Under the pieces are notes generated by a model, which was given only the letters and a program-made list of their open reading frames with translations, did no database searches and had not been told where the DNA came from. From Reichenbachiella sp. 5M10 (GTDB lineage Bacteria > Bacteroidota > Bacteroidia > Cytophagales > Cyclobacteriaceae), in the NCBI RefSeq assembly GCF_002742335.1, contig NZ_MDGR01000007.1:372001-436000 (forward strand): a stretch of DNA of 64,000 bases, read 5' to 3'. Shown piece by piece: positions 7,909-42,384 of this stretch. Numbering within the stretch: the first letter of the stretch is position 1; every line of letters starts with the position of its first letter. A program made the translations under genes and the position numbers.

Positions 7909-8826
7909 CTAGTCACTCGTGTCAGAATAGAGCGTTTTTACATCGGAATTGTACAGCATCCCTAATTCTTCTCTCATACAGTTAGCTGCACCACAGGCCG
8001 CTCCTAGGTTGGCTATTTTTTGAAAGTCTAACCCTTCAGATATTCCAGCCACGACTCCTGCGGTCAGACAGTCGCCAGCCCCTATTGTGCTCACTACTTT
8101 GTCGATTTTTGAAAGGCTATGATAGCTTTTTGAAGGAGTGAGCAAAAACAAACCTTTGGAACCATCTGTGATGGCGGCAAGCTCACAGGAAAGCAAAATT
8201 TCTTTCTTGGCATTGTCAAAATCACATTGATAGTATTCTGTGATTTCTTTGCGGTTTAGATGTACAGCATAGGGCTCAGCTCGTAGCGCGTATTTTAGTT
8301 GTGCGCCCGTACAGTCAAGCATGCTATTGATACCTGCTTTTTTTGCCGTCGTGATGAGTTCTGCGTAACCGTCTTCTGGGCTCCCTTTAGGCCATGAGCC
8401 AGACAAAACCATGAAATTAGCATCGGACAGACAGGATTCAATGTTGGCAAGAAAAGATTGATACTCTTCTGTGGTGATTTCTGGTCCTGTACCTAGTATT
8501 TCGGTATCATCAAATTTTCCAGCAGATTTGAACGTGTAGCAACTTCTCGACCATTGTTTTAGTTCAGGGCCTATGAAGCGAATATTTGGGTAGTATTCAT
8601 TGCAGGTGTTTTTGATCCATTGACCGCTTTCCCCTCCCCAGAACCCTGCAATGGTGACGTTAAGTCCCAGTTCTGAAAGGGCCATGCCGACATGTAGACC
8701 TTTTCCTCCGGGGTATTTTTTTTCTTTTTTTATGCGATTTGGAAAGCCAATTTCGAATTGATCTACTGAGGCAAAGACGTCGATGGCCGGGTTGGGACAG
8801 ACAACTAATATGCTTTTCTGTTTCAT
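7909..8826 (-). CDS. PfkB-family sugar-phosphate kinase (LacC/FruK type), candidate tagatose-6-phosphate kinase
   Basis: A 305-residue PfkB kinase of the 1-phosphofructokinase/tagatose-6-phosphate kinase branch. It has an early CPNPAIDVF motif, the first PfkB signature YPGGKGLHVG (about residue 40), and the second signature STIGAGDCLTAG near residue 250 with the catalytic aspartate in GAGD. It lies 8 bp after the SSF symporter gene and is translated with it. In the amino-sugar pathway suggested by agaS and the aldolase it would make tagatose-1,6-bisphosphate from tagatose-6-P. Fructose-1-phosphate kinase is the main alternative. Confidence 0.75.
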   Translation of the reverse strand: MKQKSILVVCPNPAIDVFASVDQFEIGFPNRIKKEKKYPGGKGLHVGMALSELGLNVTIAGFWGGESGQWIKNTCNEYYPNIRFIGPELKQWSRSCYTFKSAGKFDDTEILGTGPEITTEEYQSFLANIESCLSDANFMVLSGSWPKGSPEDGYAELITTAKKAGINSMLDCTGAQLKYALRAEPYAVHLNRKEITEYYQCDFDNAKKEILLSCELAAITDGSKGLFLLTPSKSYHSLSKIDKVVSTIGAGDCLTAGVVAGISEGLDFQKIANLGAACGAANCMREELGMLYNSDVKTLYSDTSD

Positions 8827-8834
8827 TTGTTTCC

Positions 8835-10616
8835 TTAGTTTAGTTTAACCCAAAGTTTTTTAAGTGCGAATCCACAGCCTGCAGCTACTGTCATCAGTAG
8901 GCTAGCAGTTAGATGACGCCCATATATGTATAGACCTGTTCCCATGAGGAATGAGTAGATGCCGACGGTGCCTACGATCATGGATAATATGCCAACAGGA
9001 ACCTTCCATTTTTGTGGTTCTGCGGTGAGTACTAATCCTTCTTTTTTTGCTTTAGCAACGATACTTTTCCAGCCAGGCCCGCCTGGGTTTACTTGATTGA
9101 TAAAGTTGACCAGAGTGGTCATGCTGGTAGGAGCGGAGATGAAGCTAACAGTGATCCAGGTCACGGTAGTGATACCGACTCCAAGCAGTAGTTGTACCCA
9201 GTCGGCCAAAGGGGCAAAACCTAAAGCTTCGTGAATGAGATTGAAATAAATGGCAACAAGGAAACTGACTAACATGGCGGACAATTCGCTAGCAGCATTG
9301 ATTCGCCACCAAAACCACCTCAGTATAAAGATCAAGCCTGTGCCAGCACCGATTTGAAGTAAGATTTGAAATGCTCCTAGTGCATTGTCTAGCAAGAGTG
9401 CAAAAATCATGGTAAGGACCATAAGGACGACTGTGATGATTCTTCCGACATTTAGCATTTCTTTTTGACTAGCGTCGGGCTTCATGAAGCGCTTGTAGTA
9501 GTCGTTTACAATGTAGGATGCGCCCCAGTTGAGGTGTGTAGATATCGTCGACATGTAAGCAGCGATGAGAGAAGTCACGACTATGCCTAATAGACCAGAA
9601 GGGATGAAAGTGAGCATGGCAGGATAGCCTAGGTCGTTGTTGATGATGCTCTCAGCGTGAGGAAAAGCTGTTCGGAAGCTGTCGAGATCAGGGAAAACAA
9701 CCAATGAACAAAGTGCTACGATAATCCAAGGCCAAGGGCGTAGCGCATAGTGAGCGGCATTGAAGAACAAAACTGCTTTGATGGAATGGTCTTCGTTTTT
9801 GGCGGCAAACATTCTTTGGGCGATATATCCCCCACCTCCTGGTTCGGCTCCTGGGTACCATACGGACCACCATTGTACAAGCAGCGGAATGAGAAAGAGC
9901 ATGACGAAGACTTCTGGGTTGGATGGTGATGGGAACAGGTCTAGTTTGTCTGCTACGTTTTCATGAGCCAGTAGATTGCTGAGTCCGTTTACTTTGGGGT
10001 GCTGTAGTGCTACGAATGCAGCTATGAAAGCTCCCGCTATAGAAAGAAAGAATTGCAAGAAGTCGGTGATTAGTACGCCTTTTAGCCCACCTAGAGAACT
10101 GTAAATTACAGTGACCGTACCAGCTATCAAGACGGTTTGTATAGGGCTGAGTCCTAGTAGCACACCTCCAATTTTAATAGCGGCCAAGGAAACAGTAGCC
10201 ATGATCATGACGTTGAAGATGAGTCCTAGATAAATGGCTCGAAACCCTCGTAGGAATCGGGCTATTTTGCCACTGTATCGTAGTTCGTAGAATTCTACAT
10301 CTGTGACTACTCCTGATTTTTTCCATAGTCTAGCGTATACGAATACGGTGAGCATACCTGTGAGGAGAAATGCCCACCAAGCCCAGTTGCCTGATACGCC
10401 ATTTCTCCTGACTATATCCGTGACTAAATTGGGAGTGTCTGTGGAGAAGGTAGTAGCCACCATAGAGACTCCGAGTAGCCACCATGGCATTTTACCTTTT
10501 GCTGTAAAGAAGTCTTCAGCATCTTTATTGCCTGACTTTGCAGACCAAATGCCAATACCTAATGAAATAATGAAAAAACCGATTACAAATGACCAGTCTA
10601 AAGTCGATAATATCAT
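8835..10616 (-). CDS. sodium:solute symporter (SSF/SGLT family), probable sugar uptake
   Basis: A 593-residue protein starting at the ATG at 10616 (MILSTLDWSF), which places the first membrane helix at the N-terminus; a longer form from 10658 would add an unlikely polar leader. It has about 13-14 membrane segments and SSF features such as DAEDFFTAKGKMPWWLLG and a helix-breaking Gly-rich QWWSVWYPGAEPGGGGY segment. Members take up sugars with sodium. The neighbouring kinase gene (8 bp away) and the divergent GH109-like gene suggest it imports galactosamine, GalNAc or a short oligomer across the inner membrane. Confidence 0.85.
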   Translation of the reverse strand: MILSTLDWSFVIGFFIISLGIGIWSAKSGNKDAEDFFTAKGKMPWWLLGVSMVATTFSTDTPNLVTDIVRRNGVSGNWAWWAFLLTGMLTVFVYARLWKKSGVVTDVEFYELRYSGKIARFLRGFRAIYLGLIFNVMIMATVSLAAIKIGGVLLGLSPIQTVLIAGTVTVIYSSLGGLKGVLITDFLQFFLSIAGAFIAAFVALQHPKVNGLSNLLAHENVADKLDLFPSPSNPEVFVMLFLIPLLVQWWSVWYPGAEPGGGGYIAQRMFAAKNEDHSIKAVLFFNAAHYALRPWPWIIVALCSLVVFPDLDSFRTAFPHAESIINNDLGYPAMLTFIPSGLLGIVVTSLIAAYMSTISTHLNWGASYIVNDYYKRFMKPDASQKEMLNVGRIITVVLMVLTMIFALLLDNALGAFQILLQIGAGTGLIFILRWFWWRINAASELSAMLVSFLVAIYFNLIHEALGFAPLADWVQLLLGVGITTVTWITVSFISAPTSMTTLVNFINQVNPGGPGWKSIVAKAKKEGLVLTAEPQKWKVPVGILSMIVGTVGIYSFLMGTGLYIYGRHLTASLLMTVAAGCGFALKKLWVKLN

Positions 10617-10773
10617 ATTAATAAGATTTCGAAAGTAAAATATGCTCAAACATATCATAAAACGTTCGAAACGTTGTAATAAATTAAATAAATAGTTTCC
10701 TTTCCTTTCTTTTGATAAATAATGTTATATTGTGGCTGATTTGTAAGAACCTTTTGATATGTAATTGAATAAT
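10617..10773 (-). promoter_or_regulatory. divergent promoter region between the symporter and GH109-like genes
   Basis: 157 bp drive two divergent units. On the minus strand TATGTTTG (10654-10647) is an exact -7 match, 30 bp before the symporter start. Just upstream, at 10661-10675, is a near-palindrome AACGTTCGAAACGTT that would sit in the promoter spacer and may be an operator. A run of CTTTC direct repeats with 5-bp spacing lies around 10700-10715. The AAAGTT/AACTTT motif of other promoters in the locus is not clearly present here. Confidence 0.45.
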
Positions 10774-12129
10774 ATGGACAGAAGAGATTTTGTATTGAAA
10801 ACAGCTGCAAGCGCTACGCTCGCGATGGTAAGTCCTTCTTTTGCTTTTGGAATAGGTAAAGGAGGGGATAAAATTAGGTTAGGCTTTATAGGGATAGGAG
10901 CAAGAGGGACAGGGCAGTTGGCTTTGACACTAAAGAGATCGGATATTGTAGTTACGGCTATCTGTGATGTCGACGAGGACCGTGTAGCCAATGCTTCTAA
11001 GATGATACAGGAAGCAGGGATGAAGAAGCCTGCTTCATTTGGAGATAATCCGTATGCGTATCGTGATTTACTGAAACGAAGCGATGTAGATGCAGTGATA
11101 ATATCTAGCCCATGGGTGTGGCATACGCCGATGGCTATAGATGCTATGGAAGCTAAAAAAGCAGTAGGCCTTGAAGTGGCTGGTGCTTTTGATATCAAAG
11201 AGTGCTGGGCGTTGGTGGATGCTTATGAAAAGACAGGTACGCCTTTTATGATCTTAGAAAATGTGGCTTACCGTAGGGATGTGATGGCGGTGCTCAATAT
11301 GGTGCGTCAGGATCTGTTTGGAGAGGTGATTCATCTGCAAGGCGGCTACCAACACGATCTTCGTCATGTGAAATTTAATGACGGTAAGCAGCTTTACGGA
11401 GGAGGAGTCGAGTTTGGAGAAAAGGCCTATAGTGAGGCGAAGTGGAGGACTGATCATTCGGTCAAAAGAAATGGAGATTTGTATCCTACCCATGGTTTGG
11501 GGCCAGTAGCGAATTATATAGGGAATAACAGAGGAAATAGATTTGAGTACCTCACTTCTACGGCGACTAAATCTCGCGGATTGCACGAGTACATCGTCAA
11601 TCATCCGAACGGTGGAGAAAATCATCCGAATGCCGATGTGGAATTTAAGTTGGGGGATATAGTCACGACAGTGGTGAAGTGTGCGAATGGTGAAACTATA
11701 GTGTTGACTCATGATACGAACCTACCAAGGCCTTATTCCTTAGGTTTTAGGGTGCAGGGGACCAAAGGAGTCTGGATGGATCTGAATGATGGGATTCACA
11801 TAGAAGGCAAGAGTCCTGCGCATGAATGGGAGAAGGATACCGAGTACATGAAGCAGTACGATCACCCGCTTTGGAAGAAATATGAATCTGATACCAAAGG
11901 AGCAGGTCATGGAGGTATGGATTTCTTTGTGATTCATGCCTTTGTAGAAGCGCTAAAGAGAAATGAGCCAATGCCTATGGATGTGTATGATGCAGCTTCT
12001 TGGGCGGCAGTTACTTGTCTGTCTGAGCAGTCTATTGCGGAGGGGAGTGAGCCTGTTGCTTTTCCGGACTTTACCCGTGGGAAATGGATCAGTCGTAAAC
12101 CTATTTTCGGTTTCGATGATCGATACTAG
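10774..12129 (+). CDS. Gfo/Idh/MocA oxidoreductase of GH109 type, candidate alpha-N-acetylgalactosaminidase
   Basis: A 451-residue protein from the ATG at 10774; the upstream TTG at 10765 is a weaker start. The N-terminus is a twin-arginine signal (MDRRDFVLKTAASATLAM), so the folded, NAD-loaded enzyme would be exported. A Rossmann nucleotide-binding loop GFIGIGARGTG lies at about residues 37-47, and the GH109 hallmark YPTHGLGP starts at residue 237, preceded by WRTDHSVKRNGDL. GH109 enzymes remove terminal alpha-GalNAc by an NAD-dependent elimination/addition mechanism. Other Gfo/Idh/MocA hydrolases share this fold, so the sugar is not proven. The MCP gene starts 18 bp downstream. Confidence 0.8.
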   Translation: MDRRDFVLKTAASATLAMVSPSFAFGIGKGGDKIRLGFIGIGARGTGQLALTLKRSDIVVTAICDVDEDRVANASKMIQEAGMKKPASFGDNPYAYRDLLKRSDVDAVIISSPWVWHTPMAIDAMEAKKAVGLEVAGAFDIKECWALVDAYEKTGTPFMILENVAYRRDVMAVLNMVRQDLFGEVIHLQGGYQHDLRHVKFNDGKQLYGGGVEFGEKAYSEAKWRTDHSVKRNGDLYPTHGLGPVANYIGNNRGNRFEYLTSTATKSRGLHEYIVNHPNGGENHPNADVEFKLGDIVTTVVKCANGETIVLTHDTNLPRPYSLGFRVQGTKGVWMDLNDGIHIEGKSPAHEWEKDTEYMKQYDHPLWKKYESDTKGAGHGGMDFFVIHAFVEALKRNEPMPMDVYDAASWAAVTCLSEQSIAEGSEPVAFPDFTRGKWISRKPIFGFDDRY

Positions 12130-12147
12130 TTACTATCTAAATCAGCT

Positions 12148-14715
12148 ATGGATGGTATGATCACAATGAATATGGTTTTGGGGTTAAGCGCTATTGCCTT
12201 TTTTCTCGGAATCATATTTATCCTTCATTATTCATCTCCGAGCTTGTATGGCTTCTGGCCAGTTGCGGCGCTGGGGATTGTCGAAGTGTTGCTTTTGCAG
12301 GGGGCATTTAGAGGGTTTCTCAGTGAGGTTCTCTGTGTTTTTATTTCATTGCTCTGTATTGGATTGGCTTTATATGCGCAAAAAAGGCATCAGCATCGCC
12401 AGATGGCTTTGCTAAGAAAGTGCGTGGAGCAAAAAGACTCTGGAGCAGTCAAAAAATCACTGCACCCTGAACTGTATCAGATTGGGAAGGCGTGTCAGCT
12501 TCATAGGCAACAGCAAGATGAAGTAACGCGTTTTGCTCGGGAGATGAGGAGGGGTAAATTGGATGTTATTTTGTCCGAAGATCATCCTTTAAAAAGCACC
12601 TTGGAGGACCTGCAGGAGAATGTCAATGGATGCATCCAGAAACTCGTGAGTCTGTGCAAAGGGGATGTTAGAGATGAAAGTGTGGTGTTTAATGGGGAAT
12701 GGCAGGTACTGAATGAGTCTATCAATTTGCTTTCAAATACCTACTCGAAACCTATCGAGTCTCTCAGTGATATCATGAATGCCATGGCTAATGGGGACAT
12801 GACCCAGCGTTTGGAGTTCGAGCTTGGTGGGGAGATGGGTGACTTGTCTCGTAACTTGAATTTGGCATTGGATAATATGGATGGCCTTTTGGCTCAGGTG
12901 GCTATCAATGCTCACAGTATAGATGAGTCTGCAGGAGAAATGAAGCGATCGACTGAGGAAATGACTATCAATACATCTGAAATTGCTTCGTCAATTGCTG
13001 AGGTCAACCAGGGGGCACAGTCTCAGGTGACCAAAATCGATGAGGTTTCCCAGTTGATAGGAAATATCTTGGCTTCATCTCAAAGTATGGGAAAAAACTC
13101 AGAAGGTATATACGAAGCTGCCAAACAAGGGGTAGCGCATAGTGAACAGGGTTTGGTGATGGTAGGGGATGTGCTATCTGGAATGGATCAGATTTCTTAT
13201 TCAACTAACAAGGCTAATGATTCTATTCGAGTACTTCAAGAGCGCTCTCAGCAGATGTTGGCCGTAATCAAGTTGATCAAAAGTGTAGCCAGTCAGACCA
13301 ATTTATTGGCTCTGAATGCGGCCATAGAGGCTGCACAGGCAGGAGATGCAGGGCGTGGCTTTGCAGTGGTGGCCGAAGAAATCAGGAAGCTGGCGGATGA
13401 TACCAAGAACTCCTTGAAGGAAATCGAATCTTTGGTAGATGGCGTGCAGGAAGATACAGGGTCCGCAGCAGAAGCTGTTCGACAAATGAACGAGAGTGTG
13501 AGTCAGGGACAACTTATGGCTAAATCTACTTCATTGACTTTTAGGGAGATACAGCAGGCTTCTACTCGTACATTGAGTTTTTCTGAACAAATCCTCAAGG
13601 CGACAGGGGAGCAAGAGCGGGATGTGAAGAGTGTGTTGTCTCTGACGGAGGGTGTCGTGGTGATAGCTGAGGAGACAGCTGCGGGTTCTGAGCAAATAGC
13701 AGCATCCGCAGTTCAGCTTTCTAGAGGTATGCAGCTTAATGAGAGCAAGGTGCAGGGCTTGTCAGAAATAGCAGAGAGTTTCAAAGACGGTGTAAGTATG
13801 TTGAAGCTCTCTGATAAAAATGTAGACAACAAAGTCATATTCAAAATGAAGGAGGCTTATGAGCAAGAAAAGGGGTTGTTGGATGCCTTGTTGGAGAATA
13901 TGCCTGACTTTATCTACTTCAAGGATAGGGAGAGTCGTTTTACACGAGTCAGTCAGTCTATGAAAGAGCTGTACGCAGTAGAAGATTCTGAAAGGTTGTT
14001 GGGTAGATCAGATTTGGAGCTTCTTGGAGATTCGGCGTTTGAGTCTCTGACAGAGGAGAATGAAATTATTTCTTCTGGAAAACCCGTGATTAACCAAGTG
14101 CAGAAGAATGGCGATCGATATTTTCTTGTCAATAAACTGCCTCTCTATGGGGCTGATGAAGAGGTGGTAGGGACTTTTGGGATCTCTAGGGATATCACGG
14201 ATATCAAAGCGACAGAGGATCTGAACAAGGAGCAAGAAAGGCAGTTAATAGAGAACCAAAGAAAGGCATCTGAAGCTGCGCTTGTGAGGGCGGAAGAGCA
14301 AAATAGACTTTTTGTAAACATACTCAATGAGTTACAGGACAAGGTGGAGGTGAAGGATCCAAACGGTGTCTTTTATCTGGTTAATCATTCGGTTGCTGAA
14401 GACTACGGGGTGAGTGTGGAAGAGGTGTTGGGGAAAGATGATTTTGCTTTTTTTCCAAAAGAAGTAGCTGAAAAATACTGGCAGGATGAGAAAGGGCTGA
14501 TTCAAAAAAGAAAACCCGTGTCTAGTCTGGAAAAGGTTAATGTGAACGGTAAAGATAAATATTGGTTTATTAGGAAAATACCACTCTTGATCCCTGAGTA
14601 CGATGATTGGGGTATGCTAGGGATTCAGCGGGAACTGAAAGTCAATGAAGTCAAATCGGAAGAGTATATTCAAGAGCTGAAGGGGAAGTATCCAAATTTG
14701 AAATTAGAGTTATAA
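12148..14715 (+). CDS. methyl-accepting chemotaxis-type protein with two C-terminal PAS domains
   Basis: An 855-residue sensor. It has three hydrophobic segments (about 9-28, 36-52 and 56-77) with no sizeable periplasmic domain, then a HAMP-like region (about 200-255) and a methyl-accepting coiled coil. The canonical hairpin tip is at 384-420 ([20 protein letters not shown]). Two PAS domains follow at about 575-690 and 720-835. PAS domains after the signalling hairpin are an unusual order; most chemoreceptors have sensors before it. It starts 18 bp after the GH109-like gene, so it is probably cotranscribed with it. The ligand is unknown. No CheA or CheW gene lies in the window. Confidence 0.85.
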
Positions 14716-15019: not shown

Positions 15020-18000
15020 ATGATTCAATCATTACCTAACCAACTAAAACTCTTACTAAAAAGTAGGAGGGAATTACTATTAGGACTAGTGGTGCTAGTC
15101 ATGACGAATTGCGCATTGGCCCAGACACCGTTTTATGGAAAGGTGCCTGGGCTAGATGAGAATGCACGACCTGCCTTTTGGTACGGGACGGTCAACAGTA
15201 CACAGATGGCGACCCTCAAGACTTTTGATTTGGTCATCTTGGAACCCACACTACGGGTGGTCAATGTAGGTCGCAATGAATTTTACATGGAGTCGATGAC
15301 TCCTTCTCAAGTAGAGGAGTTGAAGCGTGGTGTTGATGGAGTGACCGGAACAGCTGATGACGTCATTGTACTTTCTTACATTTCCATTGGAGAAATGTTA
15401 AGTACAATTATCCCAGGATCCTCGGGGCATATGACTGTTCAACAGGGAATAGATCTAGGATTGTTACCAGACAGCTACTCCGGTGTGTCAGGTCCAGTCA
15501 AGGGACCGAACCCATGGGATTTTACTTCTTCAGGTGCTTACATTGACACTGAACAAAGTGGTGTGAATCCAGATGGAACCTTTGACGATGGGTTTCAGGG
15601 CTATACCAATGTGGATGTTTCCGAAGATTACGCCAGCTACGGCTCCAGATTGAAATGGCGAAACCAAGGAGTGATGCCGTGGTACATGGATCAACAAGGT
15701 ACATGGGTGACGGACAGTAGGTATATGTATGGTGGATACTGGAAGTCGGGAGACAATGTAGTAGATGTCAACCCTACTTACGGAGGAGGTTATATCAATG
15801 CTGGTGATCCAGCGTGGAGAAAATTCATTGCCTTTAGGATCGAAAAATTGGTGCAGGATTGTGGGTTCGATGGTGTGTTTCTGGATACTTTCGATACACC
15901 AGACCCAGTGGGAGGTGCTAGTCCGTCTTTGTCATGGGGGCCTAGAGGGAACTTTGCTTGGACAGCAAAAGGTATGGTGGAGCTGATCGAAATGATCAAG
16001 GCAGTCGATCCTACCAAGGTGGTGGCTTCCAACCGCGGCTATTGGATGATGAACCCACAGGAAGGGACTTCACAGTTCGCAGACAGGTACCGTCAGGCAA
16101 TGAATATTTTCGTGACTGAGTCTTGGTACCACAACCCATACATCAACTCGGGTTCCATGTTTTATGATGAGAACTCAGCTTTTGCTAGTAACTGGAATAC
16201 TGACTCGAGTAGTCCGGATTATCAGATCCGAGATAATTTCGGGGGCTATTGGAAGGAGTATATGGATGCACAGGCAGATGCAAACAATGGTTTCAATATC
16301 CTGATCATTGATTTTTTGGTGACTGCCGGGACCAAAATTAACAAGTGGATGGGAGAGGTAGTGGACAACAGCGGGTATATGGGCTATGCTGTTCATAATT
16401 CTACTCACTTTAATTCCGGGATATCTACTGTGGCTAAGGATTGGCTAGATAGTCAGGGAAGGCCTAGCGCGAACCTGCAAGGATTTCATAGCAATAGTGC
16501 TTATTCTGGTTTTGCAGCAGATGGAGATTTTTCTGAGTGGAGTGGCGAAACACCCATCTATGAGGATGCATCAGGTAGTAATGGGAAATCCATCACGAAG
16601 GTATACACCAAATTCATCAATGATCGCTTCTTCATGATGGTGGAAAGTAGTACTGCGCTCAGTCTGACTGGTGAACACATCTATTTCGATTTTGATCAAA
16701 ATGGATCTGAAGGATGGGATGTGTTTTGGCCGGTGTCTCCAGAGGCGAAAGTGTATTTTGAGAGTGATCAGCAGGTCAATTTGTTTCCACATCGTGGGTC
16801 TGGGGATGTTTTTGCCTTCCCCAACGCGATCACCAACAGAGGGTGGCCTGTGAAGATAGCCAAGGATAACAATCGCTATGAAATCCAGTTTGAAAAGGAC
16901 TTTGTTTTTGGACCTGAGAATCAGGGAAAGGAAGTTTGGGCCTGGTTTAGAGTGGCTAATTTTGGTGGATCTGGGATCAGTTTTGAAGTGCCTTCTGATG
17001 GACCTGCGATTACTGGTGTGGCTGCCACTAGTGTGTCAGATTATGTTCAGGAGATCGAATGGAATACCAATGTGCCCGCATCAAGCCAAGTGTTATATGG
17101 GTTGACCAGTGCCTATGGCAGTAGTGAATCCAGCGCTTCACTCAAAACCTCCCATTCGCTTAGTTTGTCAGGACTTACTCCTGGCACGACTTATCATTAC
17201 AAAGTGGTCTCTTCTGATGAGGGTAACAAAACCTCTGAAACGGGGGATTTGGTATTTACTACCACAGATGCCAATGCACCTCCGGTTCTTTCTAGTGTTC
17301 AATCCGTGGACGTCAGTAGAAATCGAGCGACTATTGAGTGGAGTACAGATCAGAGTTCTAGTAGTTCGGTCAACTATGGATTGACAACCAGTTATGGTCT
17401 ATCAACTTCTTCTAGTGGTACGACGACTTCTCACTCGGTTGATCTATCAGGACTCACGGCGAATACGACTTACAACTATCAAGTTCTTTCGGCCAATAGC
17501 CAGAGCGTGACGGCTTCTAGTACTAACTATACCTTTGCTACGCTGCCTGACTTGGCTATATCTAATGTAGAAGTCAGTCCGACCAATGTTTCAGCGACGG
17601 TTACTTGGACTTCCAATACGCCCGCTGATAGTAGGGTGGATTTTGGTCTGACTAGCAGCTATGGTAGTAGTGAGACAAATACTCCAATGATCACCAATCA
17701 TGCAGTGACAATTACAGGGTTGACTCCTGGCACGGTTTATCACTATCAGGTGACTTCCAGTGATGGGCAGACGGTTTCATCTAGTGATTTGACCTTTACG
17801 ACCAGTACATTTAGCAGTATCACTGTAGATGGAAGTAGTGCTGATTGGGCGGGAGTGCCAGCTTTGGCAACCGGTAGCGGAGATCTAACAACGATGAAGG
17901 TGGCAGAGGGGCAAAACCAAATTTATGTACTGATCGAGGGAAGTGGCTTGACTTCACACATTCGTCGATTGTTGATCAATGCGGATAACAATGGTGCTAC

Positions 18001-27813: not shown

Positions 27814-27946
27814 GTGTATTTTGTTATTAGTGGTCACACGGAGTTCACTAAACCTGATAGATCAATCTGGTTTATTCCATGGGTACTTTTGTCAATTAGA
27901 TGCGGTCTGGTTACTTGTAAAAATTGTAACTGAGCGCATAGCCTTT

Positions 27947-30104: not shown

Positions 30105-30135
30105 CAAATTTAAACACAAAGTTTAAACTTTCAAA
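30105..30135 (-). promoter_or_regulatory. agaS promoter with operator in the spacer
   Basis: On the minus strand TTTG (30135-30132) is followed after 19 bp by TAAATTTG (30112-30105), a full match to the Bacteroidota -33/-7 consensus. The spacer contains a perfect 14-bp palindrome AAAGTTTAAACTTT (30118-30131), placed where a repressor would block RNA polymerase. The predicted leader is about 37 nt. Confidence 0.7.
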
Positions 30136-30163
30136 TACTTTCATATTTACTTTTTTAACTTTT
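30118..30163. promoter_or_regulatory. helically phased ACTTT(C/T) repeats between agaS and the regulator gene
   Basis: ACTTTC occurs at 30127 and 30137 and ACTTTT at 30149 and 30158, spaced 9-12 bp, about one DNA turn each, next to the AAAGTTTAAACTTT palindrome. DeoR-family regulators often bind such repeated sites, so this is the likely binding array of the AgaR-like protein. Confidence 0.5.
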
Positions 30164-33689: not shown

Positions 33690-33713
33690 GATTGACGCTG
33701 CTTGAAAAAAAAT

Positions 33714-33751
33714 GAAAAAAGCAATGTCATGATGCTTGGTCATGACATTGC
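33714..33751 (-). terminator. intrinsic terminator after the PKD lipoprotein gene
   Basis: A perfect 12-bp stem GCAATGTCATGA/TCATGACATTGC (33721-33732 with 33740-33751) has a 7-nt loop and is followed on the minus strand by TTTTTT. It lies between the PKD lipoprotein gene and the DUF4832 gene, so the latter depends on read-through or its own promoter. Confidence 0.85.
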
Positions 33752-34754: not shown

Positions 34755-34818
34755 GTGATTTTGAATTTAAGATTTAGTATGTCAAGGTTTTCTTTGGTAA
34801 ACCTTATAATTAGATTTC

Positions 34819-34923: not shown

Positions 34924-35796
34924 TTATTTGGAGAATAGATACATGGCTACTAGGGCAACTAGCATTCCTGCGAGCAGGGTAGGGCTGGGCCATACGTTGT
35001 ACAGTATGAGGGAGAGAGTGATGGTGATTAGTGGGGATAAGCCGGTAAGGGGGACGACGATGATGGCTTTGCCGTGTCTAAGTGCGTAGACGAGTGCTAG
35101 TGCACCAAAAGAGTTGAGCAAATGAATGAAAAATGCGGCGTATGCCCCGTCCCAGCCATAGTTGATTTCTTGCGATGTGTCTGTCATATAATAGGCTATA
35201 GGGATTAGGGTTAGGCCTGAAATTGTCATGTAGAAAAAGATGCTTTCGGCTTTCATGGATTGGTTGGCAAACTTCATAACGTAGGCTTGGAGTCCCCATG
35301 CTAAAAATACCAATGCGGAAAGTATTAGCCAGGTGTGTCCTTCTGTGAGTTTTTTTTCACCATTGCTATAGGATAATAGGTAAATAGCGATCAGGGCTAG
35401 GCAGATTCCGAATGCCTGTCTTCGGGTTGCTGATTCCTTGAGGAGGGTGGTGGATAGGGCGATAGTGACGATGGGGTAGAGTGATATGATGGGGAAAATA
35501 ATGTAGGCTGGCCCTTCTCTTAATGCTTGAAACAATATAATTTGCCCTCCAGCACCTGTGAGTCCTGCTGCCATACCTAAAACGATTGCTTTCGGAGAAG
35601 TTTCCAGTTTCCAATTGGTGATTTTGAGACCAACGATTGCGCAGGGGATCATAGTGAGTGCCCATGCGATGTATCCCATGGTCGCAGGGAATCCATTTTT
35701 TTCTGGAGATTCTATTAGTGCTCCCCAGATGCCCCAAGAAACAGTCGTAGCGAAAGCATATACTAGCCAGCCAGACGAAGATTTGATAATGTTCAT
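34924..35796 (-). CDS. DMT-superfamily (EamA) permease
   Basis: A 290-residue membrane protein with ten hydrophobic segments arranged as two EamA repeats. Typical features are WGIWGALIESPEKNGF in the first repeat and the ALRHGKAIIVVPLTGLSPL segment in the second. DMT permeases move small metabolites such as sugars and amino acids. Its place between the PKD lipoprotein and susC, facing susC across 155 bp, suggests transport of a monosaccharide or short product of the locus. The direction and the substrate are not shown. Confidence 0.82.
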   Translation of the reverse strand: MNIIKSSSGWLVYAFATTVSWGIWGALIESPEKNGFPATMGYIAWALTMIPCAIVGLKITNWKLETSPKAIVLGMAAGLTGAGGQIILFQALREGPAYIIFPIISLYPIVTIALSTTLLKESATRRQAFGICLALIAIYLLSYSNGEKKLTEGHTWLILSALVFLAWGLQAYVMKFANQSMKAESIFFYMTISGLTLIPIAYYMTDTSQEINYGWDGAYAAFFIHLLNSFGALALVYALRHGKAIIVVPLTGLSPLITITLSLILYNVWPSPTLLAGMLVALVAMYLFSK

Positions 35797-35875
35797 AACT
35801 ACTATATATTATAAGGAGTCTGTTAATGATTAATTAATAAGAAAAGGCAAAGTAGTATTTTATTTAAGAAAGAAA

Positions 35876-35938
35876 TTGAAAGTTAAATAAATATTATTTA
35901 ATTTGGTGATTCAAAAATAAAAGGAAGTGAAAGTTAAA
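35876..35938 (+). promoter_or_regulatory. susC promoter with two operator-like repeats
   Basis: TTG at 35876-35878, 20 bp, then TAATTTGG at 35899-35906 (one mismatch from consensus). TGAAAGTTAAA occurs twice, at 35877-35887 overlapping the -33 element and at 35928-35938 in the predicted leader, 51 bp apart (about five helical turns). The second copy extends into an inverted repeat AGTTA-AACG-TAACT. This is a repressor-type arrangement using the same motif as the agaS and lipoprotein promoters. Confidence 0.6.
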
Positions 35939-35951
35939 CGTAACTAATTGT

Positions 35952-38930
35952 ATGATGCAAACATTTACAAAAGGTATATTGATCCTTTGTCTGCTTGCTT
36001 TCGTGACGGACTTGAGAGCTCAGTCATTGGTCACTGGGCAAGTGAGATCGGACGAAGATGGAGAGGGCTTGCCAGGGGCAATGATCGTAGTGGAAGGGTC
36101 CGCTGTGGGGACAGTGGCAGATCTAGATGGAAACTACTCTATAGCAGCAAATGATAGCGATGTGCTTATCTTTTCATTTGTCGGGTTTGTCACTCAGAGA
36201 GAAGAAATAAATGGTCGATCGGTAATCGATGTTTCTTTACCTTCTGATGTTTCGGAGTTGTCAGAAGTAGTGATTATGGGGTATTCTGTAAAGTCGAGAC
36301 AGGAGGTTTCTGCCTCGGCCAGTACTCTGGATGATACTGAACTACAGAACGTAACTGCCTCTAATGTTGAAAGTATGCTGCAAGGCAAAGTAGCGGGGGT
36401 GAGTGTGACTACCTCTTCTGGTGCACCGGGACAAGCAGCAGAGATAAGAATTCGAGGGGTCAATTCATTGACCGCAGACCGTGCCCCCTTGGTGGTCGTT
36501 GATGGCATGATAGGAGGTACATATCAACCCAATGATGTCCAATCAGTAACGATATTGAAGGATGCTGCAGCTACAGCACTGTATGGATCGCTGGCCTCTG
36601 GTGGAGTGATGATCGTGACAACCAAAACAGGTTCTAAAGAGGATGCTCAAATTGAGTTTTCGGCTACTGTGGGGCAAAAAAGAATTACTACGGGGAATTT
36701 CTCTGTGATGAATGGAGCTGATTTGTATGAACTTCAAAGGATTATGTGGGGAGATAATACTGCAGGTTTTCTCAATCAAAGACCAAATTATCTAGAAGAT
36801 CGAAATTTTGATTGGGTTGATGAAGTGTATAAACCAGGAGTACTTCAGAATTATTACGTAGCGGCTAGAGGCGGTGGAGAAAAAACCAATTACGCTGTGT
36901 CATTGGATTATTACAATGAAGACGGAACTTTAGTGAATACAGGTTATGAACGCATCAGTTTTCGTTCTAATCTCGGTTTTCAACTCAAAGAAAATATTAA
37001 TCTAAAAACCAATTTTTCTGTAGTTCAGAGCGAAGGCAATCAGGATTTTTGGGATTGGCGTTATGACCCATTTTTGAATTTGCCATGGGATGACCCTTAT
37101 GCGGATGATGGGTCTATCAAATATATAGATAACACTACCTCTCTAGAGTGGTACGGTAGAGACAAGAGAAACGTGCTGCACACGGCTCAGTATAACTACA
37201 ACAAAAGTAAATCTCTAGCTTTAACTGGGAATGCTTTTTTGACTATTGATTTTACAGATTGGTTGACTATGGAATCTAGAACGATGGTGTCCATCTATAA
37301 TTCGGGATATGAGACATTCTTGGATCCTCGATCAAAAGACGGAAAGGCAAGTCAGGGAACACTTACGAGTTCGGATAATGAATCGAGGGATGCCATTTCT
37401 ACCCTAATATTTAGGGCCAGCAAGGACTTTGGAAAACATTCCTTTGGAGGTTTTGTTGGAGTAGAGGGTGCTAGCTATTATGCAGAATCACTCAATGCGT
37501 CTGCTAGAAATATCCCTATTGGGTTGAATGTGTTGGATGCAGCAGCGGAACCTGTAAGTACAGGCGGGTCCAATGTGACGAGTACGAGAGTATCATTTCT
37601 TTCGGAGTTGAGTTATTCATATGCAGGTAAATATTTTTTGACGGGTGTTTTCCGAACAGATGCCTCCTCAAAATTTGCTCCTAGTACGCGATGGGGGTAT
37701 TTTCCAGGTGTTTCGGCTTCCTGGGTGATTAGTGAGGAAAGCATATTCTCGAAAGATGTAATCACGTTCATGAAGCTAAGAGCGAGCTATGGAGAAGTAG
37801 GTAACGATAATGTGGGGAGTACTTATTTTCCTTATTTGTCTTATTATGATTTATCAACAAACTACAACGGAAGTCCAGCAGGTACAATTCCGCTCTTGGC
37901 AGATAGACAGATCACTTGGGAAACGGTCATTTCTAGAAATGTAGGTGTAGATTTGGTCCTTTTGGATAGAGTGAATTTCACTTTGGATTATTATCGTAAC
38001 TCCACAAAAGACATGCTACTTAGAGTTCAATTGCCCTTGTCGATTGGCTATGAAGAACAATTAAGGAATGCTGGAGAAGTGAAAAATCAAGGGGTTGAGT
38101 TTGCTGTTAGTGCTGATATCATCAATCCATCTCGTGAGTTTTCTTGGAATTCCGGGTTCAACGTATCTTGGAATCAAAGTGAGATAATGGATTTGGGAGA
38201 TGATCGGGAGCTATTCTTTGGTACAGGGGCCCAGCAGGTGTCTGAAGTGGGCAACTCTCTCAGACAGTGGTACCTTCCTAAATGGCTTGGGGTGAACCCA
38301 GATGATGGTAGTCCACTGTGGGAAAAGGTGAATCGAGATGCGGATGGCAATGTGGTATCAAGAGAAGCGACTAGTGTTTACTCTGAAGCGGAGTACCAGG
38401 CTGTAGGAGATGTGCTTCCTAAATTCTATGGTGGTTGGACCAACAGCTTTGGGTACAAAGGGATTTCGCTGAATGTGCTGATTTCTTATCAGTTTGGAAA
38501 CAAGGTGTATCACAGTTCTCGACAACTTTTCGATAGCGATGGGGCTTATCCAGAGTACAATTTGATGAATCTTCAAGATGACTGGAGTAGGTGGGAAAAG
38601 CCTGGAGATGAAGCTACACATCCATTGCCAGTCAGAGGAGGGAATCAGCAGTCCAATGCAGTGTCTTCCCGGTATTTGGAGGACGGAGATTACATCCGCT
38701 TGAGAAACGTATCTCTTGGGTATTCTTTTCCTAGAGACATGATTTCAGCGCTCAGACTACAGTCCTTGAATATCTCGTTGAGCGCAGATAACCTATTTAC
38801 TTGGACTAAATTTTCAGGTTTAGATCCAGAAACCAGAATATCTGCATCGGAATATGAGTTGCCTGGTTTTCAGGACTTCAAGTATCCTATCAGTAAACAG
38901 TATCTAGTCAAACTGACTGCTAAATTTTAA
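35952..38930 (+). CDS. susC: SusC-type TonB-dependent outer membrane transporter
   Basis: A 992-residue SusC/RagA transporter. After a signal peptide (ending near LRAQ) comes a carboxypeptidase-D-like beta domain (TGQVRSDEDGEGLPGAMI ... FSFVGFVTQ). Next are the SELSEVVIMGY stretch, a plug domain with QGKVAGVSV, EIRIRGVNSL and APLVVVDGM, and a long beta-barrel ending ...YLVKLTAKF. It takes glycan fragments from the cell surface into the periplasm using TonB energy, with SusD as its lid. SusD follows 11 bp later. The start at 35952 (ATG-ATG) is the first of two. Confidence 0.93.
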   Translation: MMQTFTKGILILCLLAFVTDLRAQSLVTGQVRSDEDGEGLPGAMIVVEGSAVGTVADLDGNYSIAANDSDVLIFSFVGFVTQREEINGRSVIDVSLPSDVSELSEVVIMGYSVKSRQEVSASASTLDDTELQNVTASNVESMLQGKVAGVSVTTSSGAPGQAAEIRIRGVNSLTADRAPLVVVDGMIGGTYQPNDVQSVTILKDAAATALYGSLASGGVMIVTTKTGSKEDAQIEFSATVGQKRITTGNFSVMNGADLYELQRIMWGDNTAGFLNQRPNYLEDRNFDWVDEVYKPGVLQNYYVAARGGGEKTNYAVSLDYYNEDGTLVNTGYERISFRSNLGFQLKENINLKTNFSVVQSEGNQDFWDWRYDPFLNLPWDDPYADDGSIKYIDNTTSLEWYGRDKRNVLHTAQYNYNKSKSLALTGNAFLTIDFTDWLTMESRTMVSIYNSGYETFLDPRSKDGKASQGTLTSSDNESRDAISTLIFRASKDFGKHSFGGFVGVEGASYYAESLNASARNIPIGLNVLDAAAEPVSTGGSNVTSTRVSFLSELSYSYAGKYFLTGVFRTDASSKFAPSTRWGYFPGVSASWVISEESIFSKDVITFMKLRASYGEVGNDNVGSTYFPYLSYYDLSTNYNGSPAGTIPLLADRQITWETVISRNVGVDLVLLDRVNFTLDYYRNSTKDMLLRVQLPLSIGYEEQLRNAGEVKNQGVEFAVSADIINPSREFSWNSGFNVSWNQSEIMDLGDDRELFFGTGAQQVSEVGNSLRQWYLPKWLGVNPDDGSPLWEKVNRDADGNVVSREATSVYSEAEYQAVGDVLPKFYGGWTNSFGYKGISLNVLISYQFGNKVYHSSRQLFDSDGAYPEYNLMNLQDDWSRWEKPGDEATHPLPVRGGNQQSNAVSSRYLEDGDYIRLRNVSLGYSFPRDMISALRLQSLNISLSADNLFTWTKFSGLDPETRISASEYELPGFQDFKYPISKQYLVKLTAKF

Positions 38931-38941
38931 TCGCAAGAAAG

Positions 38942-40411
38942 ATGAAAAGAATACTAATAATATGTTTAATGGCCCTATTTGCTGTCTCTTGTGATTTGGA
39001 CCAGCTGCCGAGTGAAGGTATAGTGGCGGAATCTTTGTCCAACAATTATGAGGGGCTGTTGGCCGCTACAGATGGCAATTATGCCATGATGAAAGATGTG
39101 ATCACTTATTATGGTGCAGACAATACTGCTAACTATTGGATACGTCACTATCATCATTTGTCTGAGTATGCCAGTGACAATGTAATGCTAAGTGGATCTA
39201 CTACTGACCCATTGTATTATGTGTTTACTAGAGAACATTTTGCCTCTATGAACAATACAAGTTATCTCTGGTTTTCTTCTTACAGAATCATCAATGGCGC
39301 AAATCAGATCATCGCAGCATTGAGTGATCCTGAGGACGAAGATTCAAAACAATTGCTAGGGGAAAACTATTTTCTTCGTGCCTTTATGCATCTAGAGTTG
39401 CTGAAGTTGTTTGCTATGCCGTACTCGCATGGTCGTGACAATGATGGCGTGATCCTAAAAACATCCGTAGAAGATTCGCCACTGATGGCTAGGTCTACCG
39501 TAGGAGAATGTTATGATCAAATTGAGGCAGATCTACTCCTTGCAGTAGACCTAATGGGAGCTAGTAGGGGTAGTGCTTTTGGCTCAGCGGTAGCAGCTCA
39601 AGCCTTGCTCAGTAGGGTGTATCTACACATGGAAAGATGGCAAGACGCTATTGACTATGCTGACGAAGTGATTGCCAATGGAGCATTTGAATTGGAGCCA
39701 AAGAGCAATTATGTCAATGCTTTTTACAATAGTGCTTCCTCCACAGAGGCAATTTGGTATGTCGCTCAGTTACTGCAGGATGACAAGACGTTAGCGGCAG
39801 TTGGTTCTATGTACCTTACTGATCAAGGGTTGGGATGGGGAGAGATATACCCTTCAGAATCTCTACGAGACTTATTGGGTCAGTATCCTCAAGACGTAAG
39901 GAACGATTTTATTAAACCTGACTATGAGGACGACGGGGTGACCGTCAAAGAAAGAAATGGTTATCCAAAATACTTCATTACTAAGTTTTCTTATCAAGAT
40001 GACGTGGTGACTCTAAACTCTCCACAAATGATTCGGTTGGGTGAAGTATACCTAAACCGTGCAGAGGCCTATGCGCATCAGGGCGATATCGATAAGGCTT
40101 TGACTGATGTCAATACCATTCGCCAACGTGCGGGCCTCACGGGGACTGATCTTTATACTTCAGCTGATTTTAAAGGGTTTACGAATATTTTGGAAGTGGT
40201 TTTGAATGAAAGAAGACTGGAATTGGCTTGGGAAGGTTTTAGAACACAGGATTTGGTGAGAAATAAAATGGACATTGATAGAAGTTACCCAGGTGTTCAT
40301 TTGTTGAATGGAGAAACCGATCAAGTGATCCCGTGGAGTGACAATCGTAACATCTTTTATATTCCACTCAATGAGTTGACTAATAATATTGAAGTGGATC
40401 AAAATCCTTAA
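38942..40411 (+). CDS. susD: SusD/RagB-type outer membrane glycan-binding lipoprotein
   Basis: A 489-residue lipoprotein with lipobox cysteine near residue 17 (FAVSCDLDQLPSE). The SusD family pattern is present: the helical TPR-type framework (NYFLRAFMHLELLKLFA and the repeated A-x-x-YAD segments), EVYLNRAEAYAHQGD, INTIRQRAGL-like VNTIRQRAGL, and a C-terminal ERRLELAWEGFRTQDLVR. It forms the lid over SusC and presents the polymer or oligosaccharide. A terminator follows before the fructose-bisphosphatase gene. Confidence 0.93.
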   Translation: MKRILIICLMALFAVSCDLDQLPSEGIVAESLSNNYEGLLAATDGNYAMMKDVITYYGADNTANYWIRHYHHLSEYASDNVMLSGSTTDPLYYVFTREHFASMNNTSYLWFSSYRIINGANQIIAALSDPEDEDSKQLLGENYFLRAFMHLELLKLFAMPYSHGRDNDGVILKTSVEDSPLMARSTVGECYDQIEADLLLAVDLMGASRGSAFGSAVAAQALLSRVYLHMERWQDAIDYADEVIANGAFELEPKSNYVNAFYNSASSTEAIWYVAQLLQDDKTLAAVGSMYLTDQGLGWGEIYPSESLRDLLGQYPQDVRNDFIKPDYEDDGVTVKERNGYPKYFITKFSYQDDVVTLNSPQMIRLGEVYLNRAEAYAHQGDIDKALTDVNTIRQRAGLTGTDLYTSADFKGFTNILEVVLNERRLELAWEGFRTQDLVRNKMDIDRSYPGVHLLNGETDQVIPWSDNRNIFYIPLNELTNNIEVDQNP

Positions 40412-40435
40412 AATTAAATTGTTTATATCGTGTTT

Positions 40436-40475
40436 AAAGGGAATTACCTATGGGTAGTTCCCTTTATTCTTTTTA
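40436..40475 (+). terminator. intrinsic terminator after susD
   Basis: The arms AAAGGGAATTACC (40436-40448) and GGTAGTTCCCTTT (40453-40465) pair with one mismatch and are followed by T-rich sequence. The next start codon is 2 bp beyond, so this hairpin may act as an attenuator between susD and the phosphatase gene. Confidence 0.75.
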
Positions 40476-40476
40476 G

Positions 40477-42384
40477 ATGAAGATGTCAGTAGACTTAAAA
40501 ACTCCATTTCGATTTCTGGAAGGGGAAGCCGTAGGTTTAGGGAAGAAGAAAGTAGAAATTCTTAGGTTAAAGTCAATTCTTGGACTCAATAAAGGGACAG
40601 AGGTTTTTGTCAGTGATCTGCATGGAGCCAATGAGACCTTTGACTACTTATTGAAAAATGGCTTTGGAACGATTGAGAAAATCGTAAGGGAGAATTTGGG
40701 CATGCTTGCTGATCGTGAACGAAACGATCTGTTGGGGATGATCTACGCCCCCAATGAAGCTCTCAATGATGTTAAAAACAACAAGGAGGAGAGGCAGGTA
40801 CGTTTGGTGCTTGTCATGTGTAATTTGCTCAAGGTTCTGAAAGTACAACTTGCCGTGTATCCCATTGCCAAAATCAGATCCGAATTGTCAATAGATATTC
40901 AGGACATGATCATAGATATGGTCCTACGAGTGGAGTCTGACGAAAAATACGTAACCTATCTCGTAGAGTCCATTATTGAATTGTCTCTGGACGGAAAAAT
41001 TATCAGTGAGTTGGTGGGGTTAATAAGGCGTGTCTGCGTGCAAAAACTTCACGTAGTAGGTGATATTTACGATCGCGGACCTGGTGCTGATCTGATACTT
41101 GATCAATTGATTGATTATCAAGATTGTGACGTGCAATGGGGCAATCATGACATAGTATGGATGGGGGCAGCATGTGGCTCTGATGCTTGTATAGCCAATG
41201 TGCTGAGGGTCTCGCTGAGGTATGGGAATATTGAGACCCTCAATCGATATGGGATTCACCTGATTCCTTTGGCAACATTCGCAATGAAATATTATAATGG
41301 AGATTCGGCTTATACCTTTGAGCCAAGACTTGAAAGTGGCGAAGTTTTAGGTTCTGCCGAATTTGCTCTTAATAAAATCATGCATAAGGCAATCGCTATC
41401 ATTCAATTCAAACTGGAGGGGGCATTGATCAAGCGAAGAGAAGAGTTTTCGATGTCTTCTAGGCTCTTGTTGGATGCTTTGGACCTGGACAGAGGGATCT
41501 TGCGAGTCGATGGACAAGAATATCCATTAGAGGATAGCTATTTCCCTACTGTGGATCCACAACAGCCTTACCAACTCAATGCAGATGAAGAGGAATTGTT
41601 GCATCAGTTGAAACAGTCTTTTTTGGGGAGTATAAGGTTGAGGTCACATGCTCGTTTTTTATTCAATAGCGGTTCTTTGTACAAAGTGTCCAACAATAAT
41701 CTCTTTTTTCATGGCTGTGTCCCCGTTGATTCAAGTGGCGAATTATTGAGTGTGGATTTAGGGGAAGGGTCTTTGAGAGGGAAGGCGTTGTTTGATTTTT
41801 TCGATGAGAATGTAAAAGAGGCATGGTCAAAAAAAGCAGATCCTGATCATGCTTACGCCAAAGACCTGATGTGGTACTTATGGGCGGGGCCTTTTTCTCC
41901 TCTGTTTGGGAAAGCCAAAATGGCCACTTTTGAGAGATATTTTCTCAAAGTAAAACAGACACATCAAGAGCGGACCAACGCGTACTTTTCTTTTAGAGAA
42001 GAGGAAGACTTTTGCAGGAGAATTCTTGGAGAATTTGGTCTGAAATGCGAAGAATCTGTTGTCATCAATGGGCATATGCCTGTGTCTGTTAGGACTGGTG
42101 AAAACCCCATCAAAGGTAATTCAAAGCTTATTGTCATAGATGGAGGGTTTTCCATGGCCTATCAATCTAAAACAGGGATTGGAGGTTTTACTTTAGTACA
42201 CGATTCATTGGGGCGTCAGCTTACTACACATTCACCTTATAGTGACAAGTGCAGACAAATTAATTTTAGAACAGAAGTTATATCTGACAACAAACAGAAT
42301 CAGAAAATAGCTGATTCTACAGAAGGCAAAATAATCATGGAAAGAGTTCTGTCGCTTCAGGGGGGCTTGTTTGAGGATTTTTGA
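40477..42384 (+). CDS. fbp: class III fructose-1,6-bisphosphatase
   Basis: A 635-residue Fbp of the class III (Firmicutes/Bacteroidota) type with metallophosphoesterase motifs: VSDLHGANE (D47 and H49), VVGDIYDRGPG and WGNHDIVWM. A long C-terminal part with FHGCVPVD and INGHMPV motifs completes the fold. It makes fructose-6-P for gluconeogenesis. Placed next to an aldolase-based amino-sugar pathway it would let cells grow on the triose products. An alternative ATG lies at 40483. Only a terminator separates it from susD, so coexpression with the locus is possible but weakened. Confidence 0.9.
   Translation: MKMSVDLKTPFRFLEGEAVGLGKKKVEILRLKSILGLNKGTEVFVSDLHGANETFDYLLKNGFGTIEKIVRENLGMLADRERNDLLGMIYAPNEALNDVKNNKEERQVRLVLVMCNLLKVLKVQLAVYPIAKIRSELSIDIQDMIIDMVLRVESDEKYVTYLVESIIELSLDGKIISELVGLIRRVCVQKLHVVGDIYDRGPGADLILDQLIDYQDCDVQWGNHDIVWMGAACGSDACIANVLRVSLRYGNIETLNRYGIHLIPLATFAMKYYNGDSAYTFEPRLESGEVLGSAEFALNKIMHKAIAIIQFKLEGALIKRREEFSMSSRLLLDALDLDRGILRVDGQEYPLEDSYFPTVDPQQPYQLNADEEELLHQLKQSFLGSIRLRSHARFLFNSGSLYKVSNNNLFFHGCVPVDSSGELLSVDLGEGSLRGKALFDFFDENVKEAWSKKADPDHAYAKDLMWYLWAGPFSPLFGKAKMATFERYFLKVKQTHQERTNAYFSFREEEDFCRRILGEFGLKCEESVVINGHMPVSVRTGENPIKGNSKLIVIDGGFSMAYQSKTGIGGFTLVHDSLGRQLTTHSPYSDKCRQINFRTEVISDNKQNQKIADSTEGKIIMERVLSLQGGLFEDF

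Follow-up and report, generated by a model that had tools for sequence, protein, structure and literature searches.

We analyzed a 64,000-nucleotide stretch of the Reichenbachiella sp. 5M10 genome (the window; positions 372,001 to 436,000 of contig NZ_MDGR01000007.1, assembly GCF_002742335.1), in which positions 7909-42384 form one locus containing agaR, agaS, two PfkB kinases, a GatY-type aldolase, SusC/SusD, transporters, and exported glycosidases. This is probably a polysaccharide utilization locus (PUL) for a polymer of α-linked galactosamine (GalN) and N-acetylgalactosamine (GalNAc), most likely Pel or a Pel/galactosaminogalactan-like exopolysaccharide. More tentatively, and in our judgment a little short of an even chance, it is one of a scattered, conserved, and so far undescribed group of loci, most of them in Bacteroidota or neighboring phyla, that consume cationic α-GalN/GalNAc biofilm polymers (Pel or galactosaminogalactan) without AgaA/NagA; AgaS would be fed by an Agd3-like 484-residue protein (U484) founding a new N-deacetylase family, an FpGalNase-type galactosaminidase, a DUF4832 endo-hydrolase, and a new binding module. 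SusC/SusD, linked glycosidases, and a regulator, the combination expected of a PUL, are all present, and the SusC/SusD pair is kept in two other genomes (G001 and G003) and in one further locus (L050). The genes named in an initial annotation of this DNA were all located by library scans of the window proteins, and the locus was found to contain in addition a DUF4874-DUF4832 protein, U484, an SSF symporter, an EamA transporter, an exported amidohydrolase, a β-helix protein, a methyl-accepting chemotaxis protein, and a fructose-1,6-bisphosphatase (FBPase). The grouping is more than chance, since distant genomes have these genes together as well.

AgaS (28898-30061, minus strand), the candidate GalN 6-phosphate (GalN-6-P) deaminase/isomerase, matched TIGR02815 with 365 bits (E = 3.8e-109), below a cut-off of 529 that is reached in 0 of 394 sampled genomes of the phylum, and matched PDB entry 3odp at E = 1.5e-83. 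In Escherichia coli, AgaS is described as the GalN-6-P deaminase/isomerase (PMC3668189). On the same strand lie a ribokinase-type PfkB protein (27947-28885; PF00294, 166.8 bits; nearest solved relative YdjH) that is a candidate GalN kinase and a GatY/KbaY-type class II aldolase (26992-27837; PF01116, 286.5 bits; TIGR00167, 241 bits, above cut-off) that is a candidate tagatose-1,6-bisphosphate aldolase. The candidate tagatose-6-phosphate kinase is a LacC/1-PFK-like PfkB protein (7909-8826, minus strand), which scored 204.6 bits against TIGR03168, just under the cut-off of 216.4, and 141.7 bits against the tagatose-6-phosphate kinase model PRK13508 (cut-off 469). In 13 of 15 AgaS regions from genomes with U484, a KbaZ-type protein (PF08013, E = 1.8e-175 for that of G067) stands beside agaS, where the window has the LacC-like kinase; KbaZ/AgaZ is a proposed tagatose-6-phosphate kinase according to PMC12118421. 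No match to NagA/AgaA (TIGR00221) was found in the strain's own genome (98.6% complete), with 14 of 14 controls matching. The presence of agaS without agaA is treated as a mark of GalN use in the comparative study PMC5583593, a gut-genome survey that places the agaS plus agaA pathway only in Actinobacteria, Firmicutes, and Proteobacteria. Taken with the role of AgaS, the lack of AgaA/NagA implies that GalN itself is imported or that GalNAc is deacetylated by another enzyme, either U484 or the amidohydrolase. Of 8 genomes of the genus, only 3 have AgaS at full length, suggesting that the locus is accessory.

The GH36/Melibiase lipoprotein (23910-26045, minus strand, start probably near 25955; Pfam score 49.5 bits versus a cut-off of 27) appears from its sequence to be of the FpGalNase type and is a candidate α-galactosaminidase. 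A profile built from 21 homologues matched PDB entries 8x1b (E = 1.3e-107) and FpGalNase 9awt (E = 2.9e-106), which were near-identical in the alignments, the latter being titled 'A type blood alpha-D-galactosamine galactosaminidase'; ordinary α-galactosidases followed at 1.2e-21 and weaker. The window protein alone matched 9awt at E = 2.8e-69, making FpGalNase the closest solved relative. As described in PMC11762096, which names its active-site residues, FpGalNase works jointly with a GalNAc deacetylase. Its residues W317, D346, D347, and W387 correspond to W298, D327, D328, and W368 of the window protein (numbered from 25955), and K461, D463, C513, and D532 correspond to K435, D437, C489, and D508; the mapping used an offset of 26, reproducing the C513-D532 spacing, and D437 was placed by shifting by hand a two-residue gap of the printed alignment. 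These eight residues were invariant in 21 of 21 homologues.

U484 (22454-23908, minus strand; 484 residues) had no match in Pfam, NCBIfam, or PDB sequences, and we propose from its predicted fold and residues that it is a metal-dependent N-deacetylase of a new family. The protein occurs in one of seven other genomes of the genus and in 3 of 394 genomes of the phylum, its own included; it was found in no other relatives searched and in no viral contigs. A scan of a species-genome collection yielded 27 U484 loci, most of them labeled Bacteroidota, Melioribacteraceae, Balneolales, or Rhodothermaceae, and a few carrying other labels. An AlphaFold2 model from 29 sequences reached a predicted local distance difference test (pLDDT) score of 94.6 and a predicted template modeling score of 0.93, and a separate model of the N-domain (331 residues; alignment without the distant locus L038) had a pLDDT of 86.4. 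Foldseek searches with the full-length model gave mixed TIM-barrel and CE4 matches, none at E = 1e-3 or better. The N-domain gave eight matches at that level, four to GH57 enzymes and four to deacetylases, the latter being human NDST1 (two matches, 2.0e-4 and 2.1e-4, with TMq of 0.43 and 0.51), the fungal galactosaminogalactan deacetylase Agd3 (3.6e-4, TMq 0.49), and the putative polysaccharide deacetylase 3rxz (8.2e-4). The residues reported for Agd3 (PMC7229062) are D377 as base, D378, H510, and H514 as metal ligands, R613, and H668 as acid; U484 has counterparts in the same order at D14, D15, H116, H120, R235, and H264, the comparison being one of residue order. Of 29 aligned members, 27 have all six, among them two L038 copies at 26% identity. 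The L038 locus (1606-4996), from a Clostridia-labeled metagenome-assembled genome (MAG), holds three tandem U484-like genes (26-27% identity), two of which were aligned. Both exceptions were second U484 copies beside an intact one (L025, 8231-9823; L023, 3412-4977) in which three of the six residues were lost identically (D, D, and H to N, Q, and T); these copies are possibly non-catalytic binding paralogues.

We consider it unlikely that U484 belongs to the GH57-like, glycosidase side of the glycoside hydrolase/deacetylase superfamily and that the exported Amidohydro_2 protein (25924-26991, minus strand; PF04909, 55.5 bits) is the GalNAc deacetylase, yet several observations speak for that reading or against ours. 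The top N-domain match was a GH57 4-α-glucanotransferase (1k1x_A, 1.6e-4), and with 1k1x_B, 2b5d, and 1k1w the GH57 enzymes make up four of the eight best fold matches. U484 was sequence-related to no PDB chain with either the single sequence or a profile. Membership in CE18 by sequence was rejected in the same searches, no Agd3 chain in the PDB matching at E = 10, as was CE4 membership, for which hhalign gave a probability of 0.2% against a three-sequence CE4 profile. The exported amidohydrolase may itself be the deacetylase, and loci of the same type with an amidohydrolase and without U484 exist, one in G003 (same genus) and another being L051. Cytosolic Amidohydro_2 proteins, 20-28% identical to that of the window, also stand in 15 of 18 other AgaS loci (L040-L049 and L051-L055), where they could act as GalNAc(-6-P) deacetylases. 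Set against this, the Agd3-type order of D-D, HxxxH, R, and H is maintained even in the two L038 copies, and loci with U484 and AgaS exist in which the DNA examined contains no amidohydrolase (L016 and G067). The U484 N-termini (start sites chosen mechanically) were leader-like in 16 of 29 members and not in 12, the window protein included, with one cut off; the Gracilimonas locus L031 encodes an exported form. Within the DNA examined around U484 loci, GH109 was confined to the window, G001, and L013, each of which has the leaderless form of U484; this combination would fit cytosolic deacetylation of GalNAc released by GH109.

The DUF4874-DUF4832 protein (31008-33743, minus strand; PF16173, 173 bits), a type IX secretion system (T9SS) substrate, scored 234 bits against PF16116 (DUF4832; cut-off 29) and is a candidate Pel-type endo-hydrolase. 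A TIM-barrel protein with DUF4832, SIR_1591 of Streptococcus intermedius, is reported to disperse Pel aggregates as PelAH does (PMC12345266), and DUF4832 genes are described as accompanying streptococcal and clostridial pel clusters (PMC7112168). Near U484 in L011 (4693-6207) and seven other loci is an exported family of about 430-570 residues; of three members scanned, two matched DUF4832 weakly (E of about 1e-5, below cut-off) and one not at all.

The chief argument of the initial annotation for Pel or galactosaminogalactan had been a GH114-like call at 15020-20119. The plus-strand gene there encodes a 1699-residue T9SS protein with an N-terminal barrel (15107-16498), four copies of a shared module, and fn3/Big2 domains, and it lies outside the conserved core. 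Its match to Pfam GH114 (PF03537) was sub-threshold (E = 0.039; 13.6 bits versus a cut-off of 27). When 394 genomes were searched with the barrel, six weak matches besides itself were recovered in open reading frames (ORFs) of 274-289 residues, and the five scanned were all GH114 proteins above the Pfam cut-off (E from 1e-13 to 1e-17). Aligned to these six proteins with hhalign, the barrel gave a probability of 96.6% (E = 5.9e-10), and the two share a DGVFLDTFD motif and a Glu column. By these alignments the barrel is a distant relative of GH114, and 'GH114-like' is fair in that sense. The protein is, however, not conserved in the related loci (the 27 U484 loci plus those of G001, G067, and G337). 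At the corresponding place G001 has only a 113-residue ORF, in a stretch partly matching the shared module, and no barrel relatives were found in viral contigs.

A 147-position profile of this module found seven copies in four exported window proteins: four in the protein at 15020 and one each in those at 20187, 31008, and 33768. The module had no Pfam hit, presumably resembles CBM9, and may bind carbohydrate. When the genome itself was searched with one copy, five places were recovered, all in the locus, the two most divergent copies being missed. Related loci carry the module as well, in DUF4832 proteins, PKD lipoproteins, and further exported proteins, and so does one of the 18 other AgaS loci (L050).

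Recurrence across genomes ties these parts to AgaS. In DNA up to 10 kb on either side of U484, GH36 was found in 20 of 27 loci and EamA in 8 of 27. In 14 of the 27, AgaS lay no more than about 20 kb from U484 on its contig, five of these linkages falling within the flanks, seven resting on contigs of equal length, and two being those of G067 and G337 (the contigs of L024 and L031). Genome-wide, AgaS (E below 1e-40) was present in 18 of 23 U484 genomes (from 24 of the 27 loci) compared to 21 of 394 phylum genomes (p = 1e-16), and DUF4832 exceeded its cut-off in 16 of 22 U484 genomes (22 of the 27 loci searched) versus 18 of 394 (p = 4e-15); in the 394-genome sample, DUF4832 occurred in 5 of 21 genomes with AgaS and 13 of 373 others (p = 0.0014), all of these p values ignoring shared ancestry and differences in completeness. 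The 18 other AgaS loci contained Amidohydro_2 of low identity (15), PfkB (15), aldolase (13), GH109 (11), SusC (11), SSF (9), LacC (7), KbaZ (7), and GH36 (2). One of them, L050, shows the order GH36-aldolase-PfkB-AgaS-AgaR-DUF4832-PKD-SusC-SusD with the same order and strands as the window, without U484. The window combines a GH36/U484/DUF4832 core with a GH109-SSF-LacC segment on its left. On a tree of 40 AgaS sequences (without the short L057, and with L071 and L072 dropped as duplicates of L019 and L035), a locus-type label assigned from the presence of U484 or GH36 required 4 changes versus a shuffled mean of 12.5, the labeled sequences not forming one clade. The contig of L013 is labeled Rickettsiales and encodes proteins 48-89% identical to those of the window in the same order; it is probably a mislabeled MAG.

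The galactosamine assignment of the initial annotation is well supported by these results and gains from the FpGalNase-type GH36, the Agd3-like putative deacetylase, and the DUF4832 protein, and further from the lack of a NagA/AgaA match and the conserved linkage to agaS. Its more specific proposal of Pel or galactosaminogalactan stands as far as a galactosamine polymer is concerned, the exact polymer not being settled by the sequence. The U484 family, the FpGalNase-type GH36, the connection between DUF4832 and Pel, and the lack of AgaA/NagA go beyond that annotation.

Several findings weigh against our reading. Full-length AgaS is lacking in 5 of 23 U484 genomes: Marinoscillum (G450) has neither AgaS nor DUF4832, G456, G458, and G466 are without full-length AgaS, and G471, with the distant L038, is without any AgaS. 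Among the 18 DUF4832 genomes of the phylum sample, 13 are without AgaS, and DUF4832 is also reported from a cellulosomal protein (PMC7480376), so a substrate cannot be assigned from this domain alone. The shared module was found in 12 of 27 U484 loci in the DNA examined, and the barrel had no match in the ORFs of G001, G067, G337, or the 27 related loci. In GH36, Y464 of FpGalNase is replaced by glycine (G438) in 21 of 21 homologues.

The enzymes could also be directed at terminal α-GalNAc on O-glycans or A-antigen-like structures, as with the Flavonifractor pair, instead of at a linear GalN polymer. The nearest characterized relative of the GH36 protein works on A-type red cells together with a GalNAc deacetylase, and GH109 includes exo-α-GalNAcases, one of which is found in the mucin PUL BT4240-50. 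We nevertheless judge such a target quite improbable: no mucin peptidase or β-galactosidase was present among the 20 window proteins scanned, the DUF4832 protein and the GH114-related barrel suggest that a GalNAc polymer is cut internally, and several relatives are from free-living genera, e.g., Gracilimonas and Chryseolinea, related loci being present in Gracilimonas mengyeensis and Chryseolinea serpens. Use of only monomeric or small GalNAc/GalN, with the exported proteins belonging to another pathway that stands beside an aga operon by accident, seems highly unlikely. Loci with AgaS, LacC, PfkB, and aldolase and without GH36, U484, or DUF4832 do exist (L040-L046), but in other families, too, AgaS is accompanied by GH36, U484, DUF4832, and the PKD lipoprotein, and the few changes of locus type on the AgaS tree likewise argue against accident. 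The 20 window proteins scanned included no polysaccharide lyase, unsaturated-uronyl hydrolase, or sulfatase, and a chondroitin/dermatan target was therefore set aside.

For utilization of a Pel-like polymer, we envision the following route, in which the family assignments, gene linkage, lack of a NagA/AgaA match, and fold are computed and every activity, location, step order, and the polymer itself are inferred. T9SS-exported endo-hydrolases, namely the DUF4874-DUF4832 protein and in this strain also the GH114-related barrel, would cut the polymer at the surface, where the shared binding module and the PKD-domain lipoprotein (33768-34754, minus strand), a candidate surface glycan-binding protein, would hold it. 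Oligomers would be imported by a SusC-like TonB-dependent importer (35952-38930, plus strand) with its SusD-like lipoprotein (38942-40411, plus strand). Terminal GalN would be removed by the GH36 lipoprotein and terminal GalNAc by the GH109-type protein (10765-12129, plus strand; PF21252, 298 bits; 90% identity to its G001 counterpart), a candidate exo-α-N-acetylgalactosaminidase; both would be needed because Pel is mainly an α-1,4-linked GalN-GalNAc repeat (as described in PMC9135694). The sugars may then enter through the EamA transporter (34924-35796, minus strand; PF00892, 100 bits) and the SSF sodium:solute symporter (8835-10658, minus strand; PF00474, 108.5 bits), a candidate GalNAc/GalN importer. 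U484, which has no signal peptide in the window, would take off the acetyl group, standing in for the absent AgaA/NagA; the ribokinase-type PfkB would convert GalN to GalN-6-P, AgaS would yield tagatose-6-phosphate and ammonia, and the LacC-like kinase would form tagatose-1,6-bisphosphate, which the aldolase would split. The Firmicute-type FBPase adjoining SusD (40477-42384, plus strand; PF06874, 707 bits) would permit gluconeogenesis, probably from the triose phosphates; FBPase adjoins SusD in G001 too (55% identity) and had no match in the other loci compared.

The DeoR-type repressor AgaR (30236-31018, plus strand; NF040755, 278.7 bits, cut-off 260) would repress the locus. The pattern AACTTTCANNTNCTTTC, a candidate operator that we regard as a lead only, had 5 matches in the window versus 0.04 expected, a low chance expectation that is partly post hoc since the motif was picked by eye. 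One match lies between agaS and agaR (30126-30142, plus strand) and two between eamA and susC (35868-35935, minus strand); of the remaining two, one is within a gene and one outside the locus. A looser pattern had matches in the corresponding gaps of G001 and L013, as well as in L042, L044, and L076. The remaining genes include the β-helix T9SS protein with one shared module (20187-22373, plus strand; PF13229) and the methyl-accepting chemotaxis protein with PAS domains (12148-14715, plus strand; PF00015 and PF08448), which occupies the same place in G001 (66% identity) and possibly links feeding to movement. A tRNA-Arg(CCT) at 7689-7761 lies at the left edge of the locus; its reading as an insertion mark was not upheld, as 60 kb around the G001 locus contained two tRNA-Lys only and no tRNA-Arg.

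Bacterial and fungal biofilms contain Pel and galactosaminogalactan as matrix polymers, and in the literature cited here the enzymes acting on these polymers figure as producing machinery or dispersal agents. If our proposal is correct, a locus feeding on these polymers would tell who recycles such matrix material, would offer researchers a matched endo-hydrolase, deacetylase, exo-galactosaminidase, and binding module to use as tools, and would provide a function for an unannotated 484-residue family, a catabolic setting for DUF4832, and an extension of the AgaS route. No Pel or galactosaminogalactan utilization locus was among the literature matches listed, in which subscription literature was thinly covered. 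The nearest Bacteroidota locus among those matches was the mucin GalNAc PUL BT4240-50 of Bacteroides thetaiotaomicron (PMC11992087), which shares SusC/D, GH109, a surface glycan-binding protein, and a sugar kinase with the window, but differs in having a GalNAc-specific kinase, GH2, and an M60-like peptidase; AgaS and tagatose have no mention in the main text of that paper. The aga/gam system of E. coli (PMC3668189) and the Shewanella pathway (PMC12118421), as presented there, share AgaS, AgaR, the tagatose-6-phosphate kinase step, and a GatY/KbaY-type aldolase. In contrast to both, no phosphotransferase system was seen in the window and AgaA/NagA is lacking, whereas SusC/D and exported polymer-degrading enzymes are present and deacetylation would precede phosphorylation. 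The FpGalNAcDeAc/FpGalNase pair of Flavonifractor plautii (PMC11762096) shares the pairing of a GH36 galactosaminidase with a GalNAc deacetylase; the window pair differs in that U484 matches no PDB chain by sequence and in being tied to AgaS catabolism. Agd3 of Aspergillus fumigatus (CE18; PMC7229062) resembles U484 in the fold of the N-domain and in the order in which the base, the metal triad, the arginine, and the acid follow one another, but the two have no detectable sequence similarity, and Agd3 carries an N-terminal CBM87 where U484 has a C-terminal β-domain. Relative to the endo-galactosaminidases of GH114, GH191, GH135, and GH166 (PMC12054363), the window barrel is distantly GH114-related and below the Pfam cut-off. 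SIR_1591 (PMC12345266) shares DUF4832 with the window protein; it is described as a surface-located TIM barrel, dispersing Pel aggregates and encoded in a pel biosynthetic operon, whereas the window protein adds DUF4874, a binding module, a T9SS tail, and a catabolic locus.

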